Under the pieces are notes generated by a model. That model made no database searches. It was not told the DNA's origin and saw nothing but the letters and a program-made list of their open reading frames with translations. A DNA stretch of 64,000 nucleotides. It comes from Polynucleobacter sp. AP-Latsch-80-C2 (GTDB lineage: Bacteria; Pseudomonadota; Gammaproteobacteria; Burkholderiales; Burkholderiaceae). The position numbers and the translations under genes were made by a program. The DNA lies in assembly GCF_018882185.1 (NCBI RefSeq), contig NZ_JACVOY010000001.1, forward strand, positions 124,001 through 188,000. Direction: 5' to 3'. Positions 1 through 4,562 of this stretch are shown piece by piece (the first letter of the stretch is position 1; each line of letters opens with the position of its first letter).

Positions 1-185
1 GGGGGGTAATGATCAATCCCTTGGGTGATAGAAATAAAACAGTTGATTGGAAAGAAAATATGAGTAGTTGGCTTGCCAACGATGCATATTGTTTGAGATA
101 AATTTAACTCAACCAGTTCAGCATTAGCTAAAACAGACTCTTGATTCTGCTGCGGCAACAAATTAATGAGAGCATTTTTATTCAT
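1..185 (-). CDS. Crp/Fnr-type regulator, N-terminal part only (cut by window edge)
   Basis: The reading frame starts at an ATG on the minus strand at 185 and runs off the left edge, giving about 61 residues. The translated start (MNKNALINLLPQ) and the following stretch with KPTTHIFFP resemble the N-terminal cyclic-nucleotide-binding-like fold of the complete regulator just upstream at 310-1029, which has MSHVYFPST at the same place. So this is probably a tandem paralogue of a Crp/Fnr family transcription factor. The DNA-binding part lies outside the window. A palindrome GTCCGTTATCGCAC at 296-309 sits upstream of it. The family call is based on a short alignment by eye. Confidence 0.6.
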   Translation of the reverse strand, partial: MNKNALINLLPQQNQESVLANAELVELNLSQTICIVGKPTTHIFFPINCFISITQGIDHYP

Positions 186-295
186 TTACCAAGCCTTCAG
201 GTTGTAGTGATAAACCTTACTCGGGCAATAGGGCTCTAATTTTGTATTTGATATCTTTCCCAGCTGAAGTATGTATGGATACTTTAGTTTGCTCT

Positions 296-309
296 GTCCG
301 TTATCGCAC
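296..309. promoter_or_regulatory. Candidate Crp/Fnr-type operator, site A
   Basis: GTCCGTTATCGCAC fits the palindrome GTnYGnTAnCGnAC, which occurs four times between 296 and 1613. It lies about 110 bases upstream of the start of the partial Crp/Fnr gene and touches the stop codon of the complete one. The role is inferred from position, symmetry and recurrence. Confidence 0.45.
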
Positions 310-1029
310 TTAAACGGCCATTTTTTCTGGGAGTAGGCGATCATATTCAGATTTCACTACTTGATAGCACTCGCAGATGCGCTTTTCTAAGCCCAATCGA
401 TTTAAGACGCTAATGTGTCCGCGAGAATATTTGATTAGTCCTGCCTTTTGGACTTTTAGGGCTGCCTCGGTAACACCCTCTCTTCGAACCCCAAGCATGT
501 TGGCAATCAATTCTTGGGTCATACGTAACTCATTACTCGGCAATCTATCTAGACTCAAAAGTAACCAGCGGCAAAATTGCTGATCTAGTGTGTGATGACG
601 ATTACAAACTGCGGTTTGAGTCATTTGGGTTATTAATGCTTGGGTGTAGCGCAACAATAGGTGCATTACTGGGCCCGCTCGATTAAATTCTTCAAGGAGG
701 ATAGCTGATTTGATGCGATAGCCTTTACCTGCACTTTGTACAACCGCTCTACTAGATGTAGATTCACCGCCCATAAAGATGGAAATTCCAACAACCCCTT
801 CATTGCCAACTATTGCAATTTCAGCTGACGAACCATTTTCTAGTGCGTACAGCAGGGAGACAATCGCTGTTGAGGGGAAGTAAACATGGCTCATTTTCAT
901 GCCGGGCTCGTATAAGACTTTGCCTAGCGGGAGCTCTGTTACTTCAATATGGGGAAGAAGTCTTTCCCACTCAATTGTGGGGATTGAATGGAAAAGATGA
1001 TTTTGATCTTTTGGTGGCGTTTTTTCCAT
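310..1029 (-). CDS. Crp/Fnr family transcriptional regulator
   Basis: A protein of 239 residues with a cyclic-nucleotide-binding-like domain (about residues 20-130) and a C-terminal winged helix-turn-helix (about 165-215, around MTQELIANMLGVRREGV, which keeps the Arg-Glu pair typical of Crp recognition helices). There is no N-terminal cysteine cluster as in oxygen-sensing FNR, so the signal is unknown. The open frame extends to 1113, but I chose the ATG at 1029: it has AGGT nearby, and the longer version would translate through a perfect palindromic site at 1098-1111. Neighbours are a second Crp/Fnr gene and small stress-type genes, and the same palindrome occurs before them, which suggests a small autoregulated regulon. 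Confidence 0.85.
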   Translation of the reverse strand: MEKTPPKDQNHLFHSIPTIEWERLLPHIEVTELPLGKVLYEPGMKMSHVYFPSTAIVSLLYALENGSSAEIAIVGNEGVVGISIFMGGESTSSRAVVQSAGKGYRIKSAILLEEFNRAGPVMHLLLRYTQALITQMTQTAVCNRHHTLDQQFCRWLLLSLDRLPSNELRMTQELIANMLGVRREGVTEAALKVQKAGLIKYSRGHISVLNRLGLEKRICECYQVVKSEYDRLLPEKMAV

Positions 1030-1097
1030 AATGGTACCTAGATATGAATTATCGTGTTGAGACACATCCAATATATTTTCTATAATCATTTGAGTAT

Positions 1098-1111
1098 GTG
1101 CGATACCGTAC
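1098..1111. promoter_or_regulatory. Candidate Crp/Fnr-type operator, site B
   Basis: GTGCGATACCGTAC matches the palindrome GTnYGnTAnCGnAC. It lies about 70 bases upstream of the preferred start (1029) of the Crp/Fnr gene, consistent with autoregulation. This is inferred from sequence symmetry and its recurrence at 296, 1565 and 1600. Confidence 0.5.
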
Positions 1112-1131
1112 ATAAAGTCAGCTTACACGAT

Positions 1132-1156
1132 AAAAACCCACCACATAGTGGTGGGT
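1132..1156 (-). terminator. Rho-independent terminator after the 82-residue gene
   Basis: On the minus strand a perfect 9-bp stem (ACCCACCAC paired with GTGGTGGGT, loop of 3) is followed by TTTTTA. It sits downstream of the gene at 1220-1468 and before the Crp/Fnr gene, so it should separate the two transcripts. Confidence 0.8.
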
Positions 1157-1219
1157 AGGGTCGTTTATTTGAGTATTTTGCCTATATCAGCATTTTTTAC
1201 TCTATACAGTCGCAATAAC

Positions 1220-1468
1220 CTATGACTTCATTGCCGGGGCTGAATTGGCGGTATTTTTTAATGCAGCCTCACTATGTTCATTTGCCTGCAGAGTATGACC
1301 TTGAGCTACTGCAGCATGAAAGCCAGCTTGCTTAACATCACCAGATTCGCAATGTTTTGCAGCTTCTTTATGGGCCATAGATGCAGCATCACAATGTTCT
1401 GCAGCTTTAGCATGAGTTTGTTGTGGAGTAGCCTGCATAGTGCTGCTTGATTTTGGATCGATTGCCAT
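1220..1468 (-). CDS. Small Ala/His-rich protein of unknown function
   Basis: An 82-residue, soluble, alanine- and histidine-rich protein with recurring A-K/H-H-C/S-type segments (AKAAEHCDAA, EAAKHCESG, HSEAALK), predicted by eye to be largely helical. There is no signal peptide or membrane segment. The start is well supported by CAGGAGA six bases before the ATG. It is divergent from the BON lipoprotein gene at 1705 and the shared intergenic region carries two copies of the GTCTGATAGCGAAC palindrome, so it probably belongs to the same stress-type regulon. I do not recognise a family. The two cysteines and several histidines could bind metal, but nothing in the sequence proves it. Confidence 0.75.
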   Translation of the reverse strand: MAIDPKSSSTMQATPQQTHAKAAEHCDAASMAHKEAAKHCESGDVKQAGFHAAVAQGHTLQANEHSEAALKNTANSAPAMKS

Positions 1469-1564
1469 ATATTTCTCCTGAAAATATAAATAAAGAGTTC
1501 TCTATTTATGTGAGTCAAAAAGTAAACTCACAGATTACTTTAGGGCTTACATAGTATTTACTAA

Positions 1565-1578
1565 GTCTGATAGCGAAC
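1565..1578. repeat. Candidate Crp/Fnr-type operator, site C
   Basis: GTCTGATAGCGAAC is the first of two identical 14-base elements, and also fits the GTnYGnTAnCGnAC palindrome found at both Crp/Fnr genes. It is about 97 bases from the minus-strand gene and 127 from the plus-strand gene. Confidence 0.5.
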
Positions 1579-1599
1579 TTATAAAAAATAAATCCTTAT

Positions 1600-1613
1600 G
1601 TCTGATAGCGAAC
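1600..1613. repeat. Candidate Crp/Fnr-type operator, site D
   Basis: GTCTGATAGCGAAC is identical to the element at 1565-1578. The spacing of 35 bases is about 3.3 helical turns. It lies about 92 bases upstream of the BON lipoprotein gene. Confidence 0.5.
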
Positions 1614-1704
1614 ATGAAATTAAATACTTCAGGAATACGCTTAAGCCTTGCATAGGGAAATATCGACACCCCAAGTAAGTCGACTACATATATGAAAGAA
1701 TCAA

Positions 1705-2040
1705 GTGACCGTACTTAAAAAAATAGCCGCATTAGCATTTTCTAGTATTTTAATTTCACTATCAGCTTGTGCTGCAACAGAAACCAAGGAGAGTACTGGC
1801 CAGTATGTCGATAACAGTGTTTTAACTGCCAAGGTTAAAACAGCGATCTTCAATGAACCTACATTAAAGTCTTCGGAAATTACTGTGGAAACCTTTAAGG
1901 GGGAAGTCCAGCTCAGCGGCTTTGTCAGTAGTATTGATCAAACTAAAAGAGCTGTTGAAGTAGCTAAGAGTATTCCAGGAGTTACTTCAGTCAAGAACGA
2001 TATGCGAGTCAAAGGAAGCAATAACCCTTTTTACAAATAA
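1705..2040 (+). CDS. BON-domain lipoprotein (OsmY-like)
   Basis: A 111-residue protein with a lipoprotein signal peptide whose lipobox L-S-A-C places the lipidated cysteine at residue 22, followed by one BON domain (about 35-105) with the typical pattern LTAKVKTAIF, EVQLSGFVSS and GVTSVKNDM. BON domains bind phospholipid surfaces and occur in osmotic and envelope stress proteins, so it probably stabilises the envelope from the periplasmic face. The start is a GTG; no in-frame ATG gives a full signal peptide. The csbD gene follows 67 bases downstream and probably belongs to the same stress response. Two palindromes upstream suggest control by a nearby Crp/Fnr protein. Confidence 0.88.
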   Translation: MTVLKKIAALAFSSILISLSACAATETKESTGQYVDNSVLTAKVKTAIFNEPTLKSSEITVETFKGEVQLSGFVSSIDQTKRAVEVAKSIPGVTSVKNDMRVKGSNNPFYK

Positions 2041-2107: not shown

Positions 2108-2284
2108 ATGAATAAAGATCAAGTAAAAGGCCGCATTGAAGAGGTTAAAGGCAAGGTAAAAGAGGTTGCTGGTAATGTTGTAGGAAATAAGTCTCTTGAG
2201 GCGGAGGGCCTATCTCAAAAAGTAGTTGGAAAGATCCAGGCTGGTTTTGGAGACGCAAAGGATGATTTAAAAAGTAAGCTTTAA
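2108..2284 (+). CDS. CsbD family stress protein
   Basis: A 58-residue, highly charged, lysine- and glutamate-rich protein starting MNKDQVKGRIEEVKGKVKE, which is the CsbD family signature, with the usual GKIQAGFGDAKDDLK end. CsbD-like proteins are induced by general stress in many bacteria; their biochemical role is not known. An AAGGAG ribosome-binding site stands seven bases before the ATG, and a strong terminator follows 21 bases after the stop. It lies behind the BON lipoprotein gene, a common pairing of small stress genes. A very degenerate copy of the upstream palindrome may lie at 2074-2087 but has three mismatches. Confidence 0.92.
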   Translation: MNKDQVKGRIEEVKGKVKEVAGNVVGNKSLEAEGLSQKVVGKIQAGFGDAKDDLKSKL

Positions 2285-2477: not shown

Positions 2478-2498
2478 ATGAGTATTCATTCGCTTTGA
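2478..2498 (+). CDS. Six-codon leader peptide overlapping the transporter start
   Basis: ATG at 2478 encodes MSIHSL and its TGA stop (2496-2498) overlaps the transporter ATG (2498) as TGATG. A GGAGA sequence lies 11 bases upstream of this small ORF, whereas the transporter ATG has no ribosome-binding site of its own. This arrangement suggests that transporter translation depends on termination and re-initiation. It is inferred from sequence only. Confidence 0.4.
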   Translation: MSIHSL

Positions 2499-3766
2499 TG
2501 AAGCACTCTCTCTGGAGTCGTATTAAAAACCATCCCCTCTTGAGAGTCGGCCCTGGCCTAGTAACTGGTGTGGCTGATGATGATCCCAGCGGGATTGTTA
2601 CTTATTCTCAGGCCGGCGCTCAATTTGGCCTCAACATGTTGTGGACGATGCCTATTGCGTATCCTTTGATGGCTGCAATACAAGTTTTATGCGCGCGCCT
2701 TGGAAGAGTCACTGGCCATGGCTTGGCATCCAACATCAAAACTACATTTCCACCGGCAGTACTATTTTTGTTGGTACTTCTTTTGCTGATAGCGAATGTA
2801 CTCAATATTGCTGCTGATATTGCGGCAATGGGTGAAGTGGCAGCATTAGTTACCGGTATTAATTGGCATGTGATGACCGCTTTTTTTGTCGTACTCACTT
2901 TAGCCTTACAAATCCTTGTCCCTTACCATCGTTACGTTTATTTCTTAAAGTGGCTCACCTTATCGCTTCTGGCTTATGCAGCTGTATTGTTCACGGTAAG
3001 CGTTCCCTGGAGTGAGGTATTTTGGGCCACCCTGATGCCGAGCTTTAAGCTCAACTCAGATGCGGCGGCAATGGTAGTGGGCATCTTTGGTACAACGATT
3101 AGTCCTTACCTATTTTTTTGGCAAGCCTCTCAAGAGGTGGAGGATATGAATAGTCGTCACCAGAAAAACTTATTATTAGAAGGTGAGGGCATTGCGCACT
3201 CAGAGCTCAAGCGGATTAGCTGGGATACTTGGAGCGGCATGCTGTATTCGAATGTAGCTGCTTATTGCATCATCCTAGCCACAGCTGTCACACTGCACGC
3301 CGCAGGAATCACGGATATTAATACTGCAGCCCAAGCAGCTTTTGCCTTAAAGCCCTTGGCTGGAAACTCTGCCTATTTCTTATTCGCAATCGGTATTTTG
3401 GGGGTTGGCTTGATTGGTGTTCCAGTATTAGCTGGGTCAGCGGCCTATGCGCTTTCGGAAGTATTTGGCTGGAATGGAAGCCTTGAGCATTCACCACGCC
3501 ACGCGATTAAGTTTTATATTGTTATTGCACTGAGCGTATTGGGCGCGCTGGGAATACAGTATTCACCAATCAGCCCAATGAAGGCTTTATTTTGGAGTGC
3601 CGTGATAAATGGCGTAGTGGCAGTGCCTTTAATGATGGCTATCATGATCCTGGCTTCCAAAAGGTCAGTCATGGGTGACTTTATAGCCAGCAAGTCGATA
3701 TTGTGTTTAGGGTGGTCTGCCACGATTATTATGGGTATTGCGGCCTTGTTTATGTTTTTTGGCTAA
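2498..3766 (+). CDS. Nramp family divalent metal cation transporter (variant metal site)
   Basis: A 422-residue inner-membrane protein with about eleven hydrophobic segments. The TM1 motif reads DPSGIVTYSQAG, corresponding to the Nramp DPGN motif, and the TM6 motif reads GTTISPYLFFWQASQE, where classical Nramp/MntH proteins have MPH. Loss of that methionine is known in Nramp relatives that do not prefer manganese or iron, so the substrate (Mn, Fe, Mg or another divalent ion) should stay open. It starts at an ATG overlapping the stop of a short leader; a TTG one codon earlier is possible. It appears monocistronic. The methyltransferase gene follows 43 bases later without an obvious terminator. 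Confidence 0.87.
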   Translation: MKHSLWSRIKNHPLLRVGPGLVTGVADDDPSGIVTYSQAGAQFGLNMLWTMPIAYPLMAAIQVLCARLGRVTGHGLASNIKTTFPPAVLFLLVLLLLIANVLNIAADIAAMGEVAALVTGINWHVMTAFFVVLTLALQILVPYHRYVYFLKWLTLSLLAYAAVLFTVSVPWSEVFWATLMPSFKLNSDAAAMVVGIFGTTISPYLFFWQASQEVEDMNSRHQKNLLLEGEGIAHSELKRISWDTWSGMLYSNVAAYCIILATAVTLHAAGITDINTAAQAAFALKPLAGNSAYFLFAIGILGVGLIGVPVLAGSAAYALSEVFGWNGSLEHSPRHAIKFYIVIALSVLGALGIQYSPISPMKALFWSAVINGVVAVPLMMAIMILASKRSVMGDFIASKSILCLGWSATIIMGIAALFMFFG

Positions 3767-3809: not shown

Positions 3810-4562
3810 ATGAGTCATCTAACAATTGAACAAATTCATAAGCAAAAAACAGGGAAGGTCAGTGACAAATGGTCTTCTTATCTTCCTTTCTATGATGCGT
3901 TATTTGAAAAATATCGCACACAAAAATTAAATCTTTTAGAGATAGGCGTTCAAAATGGCGGATCTTTGGAGACTTGGAAAACCTTTTTTGCTGATGCCAA
4001 TGTATTAATTGGTTGTGATATCGATGAGCGATGCGCCAATCTTCGTTACGAGGATCCTCGAGTACATGTCATAGTTGGAGATGCAAATCAGCCAGAAACC
4101 CACGATCGAATCACCGCTATATGCAAAGACTTTGACATTGTTATCGATGATGGCTCTCATTTATCTAATGATATTTTGAATAGCTTTCTGATCTACTTCC
4201 CCCTAGTTAAGCCGGGCGGTTTATTTATAGTAGAAGACGCTCATACCTTGTACTTAAATGATTGGGGAGGGGGAGTGTTAAATGAATTTTCTGCCTATAA
4301 CTTCTTTAAAAAATTGGTGGATGTCATTAGCATTCAGTTTTGGGGGAATGAACTTCCTCTAGATGTCTATTTCAGAACCTTCTTTGGCTTGGGGCAAATG
4401 CCGGCCTTCATAAAGGAAGGTTGGATTGAGTCCATTGAATTTAGAAACTCCATTATTGTCATTAGAAAATCTGCAACTGCTACCCATGAAAAACTCGGCG
4501 ATAGAATTGTGAGTGGTACAGATGCGATAGTAAATAGCGATATCCTTCAATTCCGTCAATAG
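3810..4562 (+). CDS. Class I SAM-dependent methyltransferase-like protein
   Basis: A 250-residue protein with a Rossmann-type methyltransferase core: motif I LLEIGVQNGGSLETW (about residues 42-56), an acidic residue after the second strand (GCDIDERC), and FDIVIDDGSHLSND, the pattern seen in TylF/macrocin O-methyltransferases and related sugar or cephalosporin-hydroxylase-like enzymes where acidic residues and histidine can bind a metal. Some distant relatives are annotated as glycosyl-modifying enzymes, but no polysaccharide cluster adjoins it. Cytoplasmic, with no signal peptide. The substrate cannot be predicted. The gene stands alone between the transporter and the hydrolase genes. Confidence 0.7.
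   Translation: MSHLTIEQIHKQKTGKVSDKWSSYLPFYDALFEKYRTQKLNLLEIGVQNGGSLETWKTFFADANVLIGCDIDERCANLRYEDPRVHVIVGDANQPETHDRITAICKDFDIVIDDGSHLSNDILNSFLIYFPLVKPGGLFIVEDAHTLYLNDWGGGVLNEFSAYNFFKKLVDVISIQFWGNELPLDVYFRTFFGLGQMPAFIKEGWIESIEFRNSIIVIRKSATATHEKLGDRIVSGTDAIVNSDILQFRQ

Follow-up and report, generated by a model that had tools for sequence, protein, structure and literature searches.

A repeated palindrome as the probable DNA switch of an uncharacterised Crp/Fnr regulator family

What is the role of a short palindrome that recurs at the left end of this stretch of Polynucleobacter DNA, around two genes for Crp/Fnr-type regulators? The window, i.e. the whole stretch of 64,000 nucleotides that was analysed, had been described in a first-pass annotation as carrying four copies of one palindrome, recurring far too often for chance. 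The letters bear this out on both counts: the copies lie at positions 296, 1098, 1565 and 1600, and the region yields six strand-matches compared with a mean of 0.04 in shuffled sequences, none of the 100 shuffles reaching six. The core pattern had to be corrected to GTnYGnTAnCRnAC, and conserved flanks extend it to a 20-bp palindrome, TMTGTNCGNTANCGNACAKA, which is, as had been proposed, distinct from the operators of FNR (TTGAT-N4-ATCAA) and Crp. Very probably, the palindrome acts as the DNA switch for a Crp/Fnr regulator family not characterised so far, with a promoter layout that appears to be kept in many relatives. Beyond the earlier annotation, we show how far the cluster reaches past the border of the window, give the operator in its full length of 20 bp and describe a class II geometry that predicts activation.

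When the entire genome (2.53 Mb in 59 contigs) was searched with a loosened pattern, GTNYGNTANCRNAC, seven places were found, six of them within a single 4.5-kb cluster (C1:121079-125613). The cluster begins approximately 3 kb before the window, whose left border is C1:124001, and two sites are positioned just left of this border; the seventh match, on contig C59, is located inside an ORF. Within the window only the four sites reached a score of 12 or more in a matrix scan. Allowing up to three mismatches resulted in 28 matches genome-wide and in 30 with a reversed control pattern, and the matches with three mismatches are therefore noise. A match with two mismatches at C56:133856 was dropped as a site because it falls inside an ORF. 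Another such match, C3:21385, is centred 60 bp upstream of a gene for a DUF5670 protein, with TACAGT at +32, and this protein is a possible outlying target.

On contig C1 the cluster reads, from left to right: tRNA-Ser(CGA), a palindrome copy (here called an operator), a Rap1a-like and a YMGG Gly-zipper gene, a BON gene and a DUF3309 gene (both on the minus strand), a second operator, a weak operator (score 12.0), a CsbD gene, a gene for a protein without Pfam match, Fnr1 (minus strand), operator 1, Crp2 (minus strand), operator 2, the gene for an Ala/His protein (minus strand), operators 3 and 4, a BON gene, a CsbD gene and a gene for an Nramp-family transporter. A gene pair for a PIN-domain protein and a MazE-type antitoxin (L005:3043-3764 and 3843-3932; coordinates of locus L005 equal those of the window plus 7001) adjoins tRNA-Ser(CGA) at the left flank of the regulon cluster and may mark an integration hot spot.

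Fnr1, the first Crp/Fnr-type gene, encodes 228 aa; its 5' end occupies positions 3..185 of the minus strand and the gene reaches C1:123499, left of the window (HTH_Crp_2: 56.2 bits, E 3.3e-15; cut-off 27). Operator 1, TCTGTCCGTTATCGCACTTA (293..312; matrix score 24.4), is centred 117 nt upstream of the Fnr1 start, and the -10-like CATACT at +32 from its centre (268..273, minus strand) is weak, since it does not conform to TAnnnT. The second gene, Crp2 (310..1029, minus strand; HTH_Crp_2: 45.2 bits, E 9.2e-12), is preceded by operator 2, TATGTGCGATACCGTACATA (1095..1114; score 27.9), with TATATT at +32 (1070..1075, minus strand). TAAAGT (1537..1542, minus strand) lies at +32 from the centre of operator 3, TAAGTCTGATAGCGAACTTA (1562..1581; score 21.7), read towards the gene for the Ala/His-rich protein of 82 aa (1220..1468, minus strand), which is without Pfam match and has a site upstream in seven of the nine members of its cluster. 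Operator 4, TATGTCTGATAGCGAACATG (1597..1616; score 22.0), is read in the opposite direction, with TACGCT at +32 (1636..1641, plus strand), towards a gene for an OsmY-like BON-domain protein (1705..2040, plus strand; BON E 7.4e-17; 72.9 bits against the OsmY model, below the cut-off of 174), by eye a possible lipoprotein, and a gene for a CsbD-like protein of 58 aa (2108..2284, plus strand; CsbD E 2.8e-18), which is probably co-transcribed with it. Given the -10 spacing, the twin sites at 1565 and 1600 make sense as two divergent promoters and appear to serve the Ala/His gene on one side and BON-CsbD on the other. The Nramp-family metal transporter gene (window 2495-3766) follows directly after BON-CsbD and has no operator of its own at threshold.

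According to the first-pass annotation, all copies lie before genes. The places were confirmed, but the longest Crp/Fnr ORF (310-1113, minus strand, 267 aa) begins inside operator 2, so that its start and the copy at 1098 overlap. At other Crp2 loci of the same genus with an upstream site (16, two broken copies included), the distance from the operator centre to the beginning of the longest ORF is 53-89 nt in 13; of the remaining three ORFs, two start inside the operator and one at 143. Because of this spacing, and because TATATT at 1070-1075 would put the transcript start near 1063, we place the most likely start of Crp2 at 1029, which is 75 nt away from the centre of operator 2 and gives a protein of 239 aa.

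Relatives of Crp2 were searched for in 300 genomes of the order (E <= 1e-20) and detected in 100, 65 of which contain two or more Crp2-type copies. Across 40 neighbourhoods of orthologs, which comprise 743,367 bases, the motif occurs 47 times and ranks first among 630 half-site-permuted palindromes, itself included (mean 3.1; next highest 21), while 17 of the 40 are without any pattern match. The flanks T-M-T/A-K-A are conserved, although they were not used to select the sites; at the three outer positions of 53 sites the frequencies are T 0.83, A/C 0.88 and T 0.75. A symmetric 20-bp matrix was then built from 96 sites and applied with a cut-off score of 12 or more. In 61 loci around Crp2 orthologs it retrieved 206 sites, a count that is partly circular, as the matrix was trained on sites of the same loci. 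Forty column-permuted matrices, run on every third locus and their counts multiplied by three, averaged 4.5 sites and gave 15 at most; cut-offs of 10 and 15 gave 230 and 163 sites, the largest controls being 33 and 30. The loci of 80 named orthologs, at least four of which (L146, L148, L191 and L200) are the same DNA as training loci, contained 144 sites compared with 2.1 (maximum 16) for 60 permuted matrices, and 45 of the 80 had a site within 350 bp upstream, compared with 0.1 (maximum 1) for the same controls. Genera with an upstream site include Variovorax, Collimonas, Hydrogenophaga, Polaromonas, Acidovorax and Thiocystis.

The position of the sites relative to promoters is conserved as well. 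Of the 206 sites, 88 could be oriented (score of at least 14, downstream genes on one strand at 15-300 bp, enough flank); together with 47 upstream sites of named orthologs (score of at least 14) they make 135, or 121 after removal of near-duplicates. Of the 121, 49 show a TAnnnT hexamer centred at offset +32 from the middle of the operator, compared with a mean of 1.28 and a maximum of 7 at other offsets (operator and offsets 31-33 left out). The peak is seen with regulator targets (11/31), named orthologs (16/44) and other targets (22/46) alike, and in the own cluster TAnnnT is found exactly at +32 towards the own gene in six of the seven operators, CATACT of the Fnr1 promoter being the seventh. 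Since a -10 element is centred near -9.5, the 32-bp spacing would put the operator centre at -41.5, overlapping the -35 region. CRP and FNR are known to act from a site at this position as class II activators.

The first-pass annotation had suggested a search for the motif upstream of orthologous Crp/Fnr, BON and csbD genes. Genes in the 61 loci were called by a simple ORF rule that leaves 23% of the bases outside genes, and 169 of the 206 sites fell into this fraction. As a baseline, a site lies upstream of 18% of all 1048 called genes. The expectation was confirmed for Crp/Fnr genes (55/92), BON genes (18/23) and one CsbD group (CsbD-1; 8/10), but not for the second (CsbD-2; 4/12), to which the CsbD gene downstream of BON in the window belongs. 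Sites also precede Rap1a-like genes (5/6), DUF3309 genes (4/5) and a BLUF group (4/6, p 0.012), the BLUF and DUF identities each resting on one representative (L135 in the case of BLUF). There was no enrichment in these loci for a DUF883 group (3/9) or for a group that is of GGDEF type, judged by eye from the member shown (3/21). BLUF-group genes neighbour Crp2 copies in L130, L133, L135, L142 and L144.

For DUF5670 as a conserved trans target the evidence is mixed. Seventeen loci were found in 16 of 186 genomes of the genus, and four of them (own genome, G039, G046 and G450) have a site within approximately 210 bp upstream, that of G039 scoring 11.4; eight of the 17 have neither a site nor a preceding Crp2 gene. 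Genes for small DUF5670 membrane proteins directly follow a Crp2 gene in L239, L241, L242, L246 and L250, all of the same genus.

Motif density follows the presence of the regulator. In the 300-genome sample, the strict core occurs 1.31 times per Mb in the 100 carriers (Crp2 or a close paralog present) and 0.50 times per Mb in the 200 non-carriers, a 2.6-fold difference (Mann-Whitney p about 1e-18, with related genomes treated as independent), compared with 1.94 and 1.82 for the reversed control pattern (p 0.19). With 0, 1, 2, 3 and 4 or more copies of the regulator gene the density is 0.50, 1.09, 1.18, 1.42 and 1.89 per Mb, respectively. Within the genus the regulator is present in 18 of 186 genomes (E <= 1e-15), G438 having the Fnr1 type only. 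Among 101 genomes of the genus, eight carriers average 8.75 loosened matches compared with 2.44 in 93 non-carriers, one of which reaches 9. CsbD, found in 13 of the 186 genomes (12 over the Pfam cut-off), is present in 11 of the 18 carriers (one below the Pfam cut-off) and in two of the 168 others; the corresponding figures for DUF5670 are 11/18 and 5/168. G450 and G097 possess CsbD together with a motif site and are without Crp2 at threshold.

The sites also covary with the recognition helix of Crp2, LGVRREGVTEAA. Orthologs with Glu after LGVRR have an upstream site in 44 of 66 cases, the other 22 having none within 350 bp upstream, whereas those with Ser, Pro or Ala at this position have one in none of 13 (Fisher 5.6e-6); the 13 (L169, L173, L176, L179, L180, L182, L188, L193, L194, L197, L201, L202 and L204) are confined to the related genera Pandoraea, Paraburkholderia, Cupriavidus, Caballeronia and Trinickia, so that the 13 should not be taken as independent events. 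One of the 80 named orthologs, L156, has a site and is unreadable at the helix. By eye, the Glu aligns with the contact residue E181 of CRP. No replacement palindrome (4+4 fixed letters) common to at least seven of the 13 was found upstream of the Ser/Pro/Ala orthologs; matrix sites are present elsewhere in two of these loci, three in L169 (Pandoraea) and one in L173.

The earlier proposal, in which these regulators recognise the palindrome and a small stress regulon is marked by it, is thus supported by the recurrence upstream of the expected genes, by the density that tracks the regulator across 300 genomes and by the 0/13 among Ser/Pro/Ala orthologs. The proposal covered both regulators; the evidence points to the second, Crp2. 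Fnr1 shares the helix core LGIRR-V-GVT, a site lies upstream of nine of the 11 Fnr1-type genes of the same genus, and G043, in which Crp2 and no Fnr1 was detected, is without a strict 20-mer, yet has a matrix site scoring 19.6 before Crp2; Fnr1 may also bind the site. That Fnr1, or both proteins as a heterodimer or in a hierarchy, is the real binder seems rather unlikely to us. G438, which has Fnr1 and a Rap1a-like gene with no Crp2 detected, contains no site in its 20-kb locus and no strict 20-mer genome-wide. Two strict sites each are kept, by contrast, in G419 and G402, where Crp2 was detected and Fnr1 was not, although each of these cases is a single genome. Together with the covariation of the Glu, which concerns Crp2, these genomes favour Crp2 as the main binder.

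The same operator might be used mainly for repression, lifted for example by stress, as Crp/Fnr proteins are able to repress and autoregulatory sites near promoters are often negative. We regard this as improbable: with 32 bp between its centre and that of the -10, the site lies over -41.5 and takes the place of the -35 element, as in a class II activator promoter, and repression would be expected more often from a site over or downstream of the -10. The first operator lies approximately 150 bp from tRNA-Ser(CGA) and the regulator is patchy in the genus (18/186), which could fit repeats for recombination, integration or methylation in a mobile island beside the tRNA gene that are without a role in transcription. 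This reading was rejected as very improbable in view of the variable letters, which differ between most motif copies, the placement outside called genes and the fixed -10 spacing. Chance recurrence, finally, is of negligible probability given the shuffles, the clustering of six of the seven matches, the permuted palindromes and matrices, and the recurrence in independent genomes.

We consider it highly probable that TMTGTNCGNTANCGNACAKA is the operator of the Crp2 subfamily and serves class II activation of the regulator's own gene, of Fnr1 and of small genes of envelope or stress type; the binding itself, and activation rather than repression, are deduced from the sequence. A Crp2 dimer would bind the operator centred at -41.5 and recruit RNA polymerase as a class II activator. 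It would thereby switch on its own gene, in positive autoregulation, as well as the adjacent Fnr1 gene, and turn on the genes for the Ala/His-rich protein and BON-CsbD; left of the window, DUF3309, another CsbD gene and the Rap1a-like/Gly-zipper pair would be activated as well.

Crp/Fnr class II regulons are a kind already known, and the putative regulator fits the superfamily by its C-terminal HTH and N-terminal beta-barrel with dimer helix. The match of Crp2 to cNMP_binding (27.1 bits, E 4.2e-6) is just under the Pfam cut-off of 27.5, and its predicted model (mean pLDDT 80.6) matches GlxR, CRP and FNR structures (TM 0.70 to 4cyd). When Crp2 is aligned with GlxR, a gap and a Ser stand opposite the Glu and Arg that contact cAMP, and no cysteine precedes residue 142 in the 239 aa of Crp2. 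As both the cAMP contacts and the FNR cysteines are missing, neither cAMP nor an FNR-type Fe-S cluster is likely to provide the signal. Residues C142, C153, C219, C221, H145 and H146 are invariant in 15 aligned Crp2 sequences and possibly form a thiol or metal sensor.

Comparison with known systems places Crp2 beside several of them. It shares with E. coli CRP the fold, HTH_Crp_2, the outer GT-N10-AC frame, the -41.5 centre of class II promoters and, by eye, helix Arg and Glu at the places of R180 and E181; it differs in the inner half-site (YG-N-T, not GA), in a Glu at the position of R185, in an operator that is not TGTGA-N6-TCACA and in the loss of the cAMP-contact Glu and Arg. With FNR it has the superfamily and class II geometry in common, but it is without a cysteine before residue 142, its operator is not TTGAT-N4-ATCAA and its helix lacks ETVSR, which is seen in Crp-type genes of seven other genomes of the genus that we read as FNR. 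The cyanobacterial NtcA (GTA-N8-TAC) uses the same 14-bp frame and is a weak sequence match; Crp2 reaches 22.1 bits against TIGR03697, with a cut-off of 244.95, and the inner bases differ. SdrP and LdrP of Thermus are CRP-type stress or light regulators that work without cAMP. Crp2 would work alike, as a Crp-type activator of stress genes without cAMP, although the operators of the Thermus proteins are different.

The RpoS general stress regulon of E. coli includes OsmY and OsmB. In Salmonella, the CsbD-like YjbJ is among the small ORFs under sigma-S control (PMC5437024). The present cluster differs in that the sigma switch would be replaced by a Crp/Fnr operator combined with a -10 element. 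The window genome and three other genomes of the genus in the 300-genome sample have no RpoS over the cut-off, the best match to the RpoS model in the own genome being E 3.5e-82 and matches over the cut-off being at approximately 1e-113 or better. A role of the regulator as a general substitute for RpoS was rejected: RpoS is present in 53 of 100 carriers and 76 of 200 non-carriers (129/300 over the cut-off; 54 and 75 if the borderline G391 is counted as a carrier with RpoS), which is the opposite direction (Fisher p 0.019).

More tentatively, and with considerable doubt, we suggest that this could be a general-stress regulon, so far undescribed, that is found in Burkholderiales and some Gammaproteobacteria. 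Its self-activating Crp/Fnr activator would perhaps sense a thiol or metal signal by way of the invariant Cys/His residues. Where RpoS is lacking, as in the present bacterium, it would control an osmY/csbD-type set, and in some relatives also a gene for a BLUF blue-light sensor, with operator and regulator travelling together as a compact cassette. A literature search retrieved no described operator for this Crp/Fnr subfamily or its regulon, the slash spelling making phrase negatives weak, and no paper on the motif strings or on the combination of CsbD, BON and Crp; Crp, FNR, DNR and NnrR have no occurrences in PMC5343134. With a third of the sampled genomes carrying it, the subfamily is common. 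Since the operator is defined over 20 bp and its promoter layout is fixed, the regulons of the subfamily can be predicted from sequence in many environmental genera, and the signal of the regulator can be tested with a simple reporter. Three Crp2 copies of the genus (L112, L125 and G472:C21:20016-20723) contain an internal stop and look as if they were decaying.
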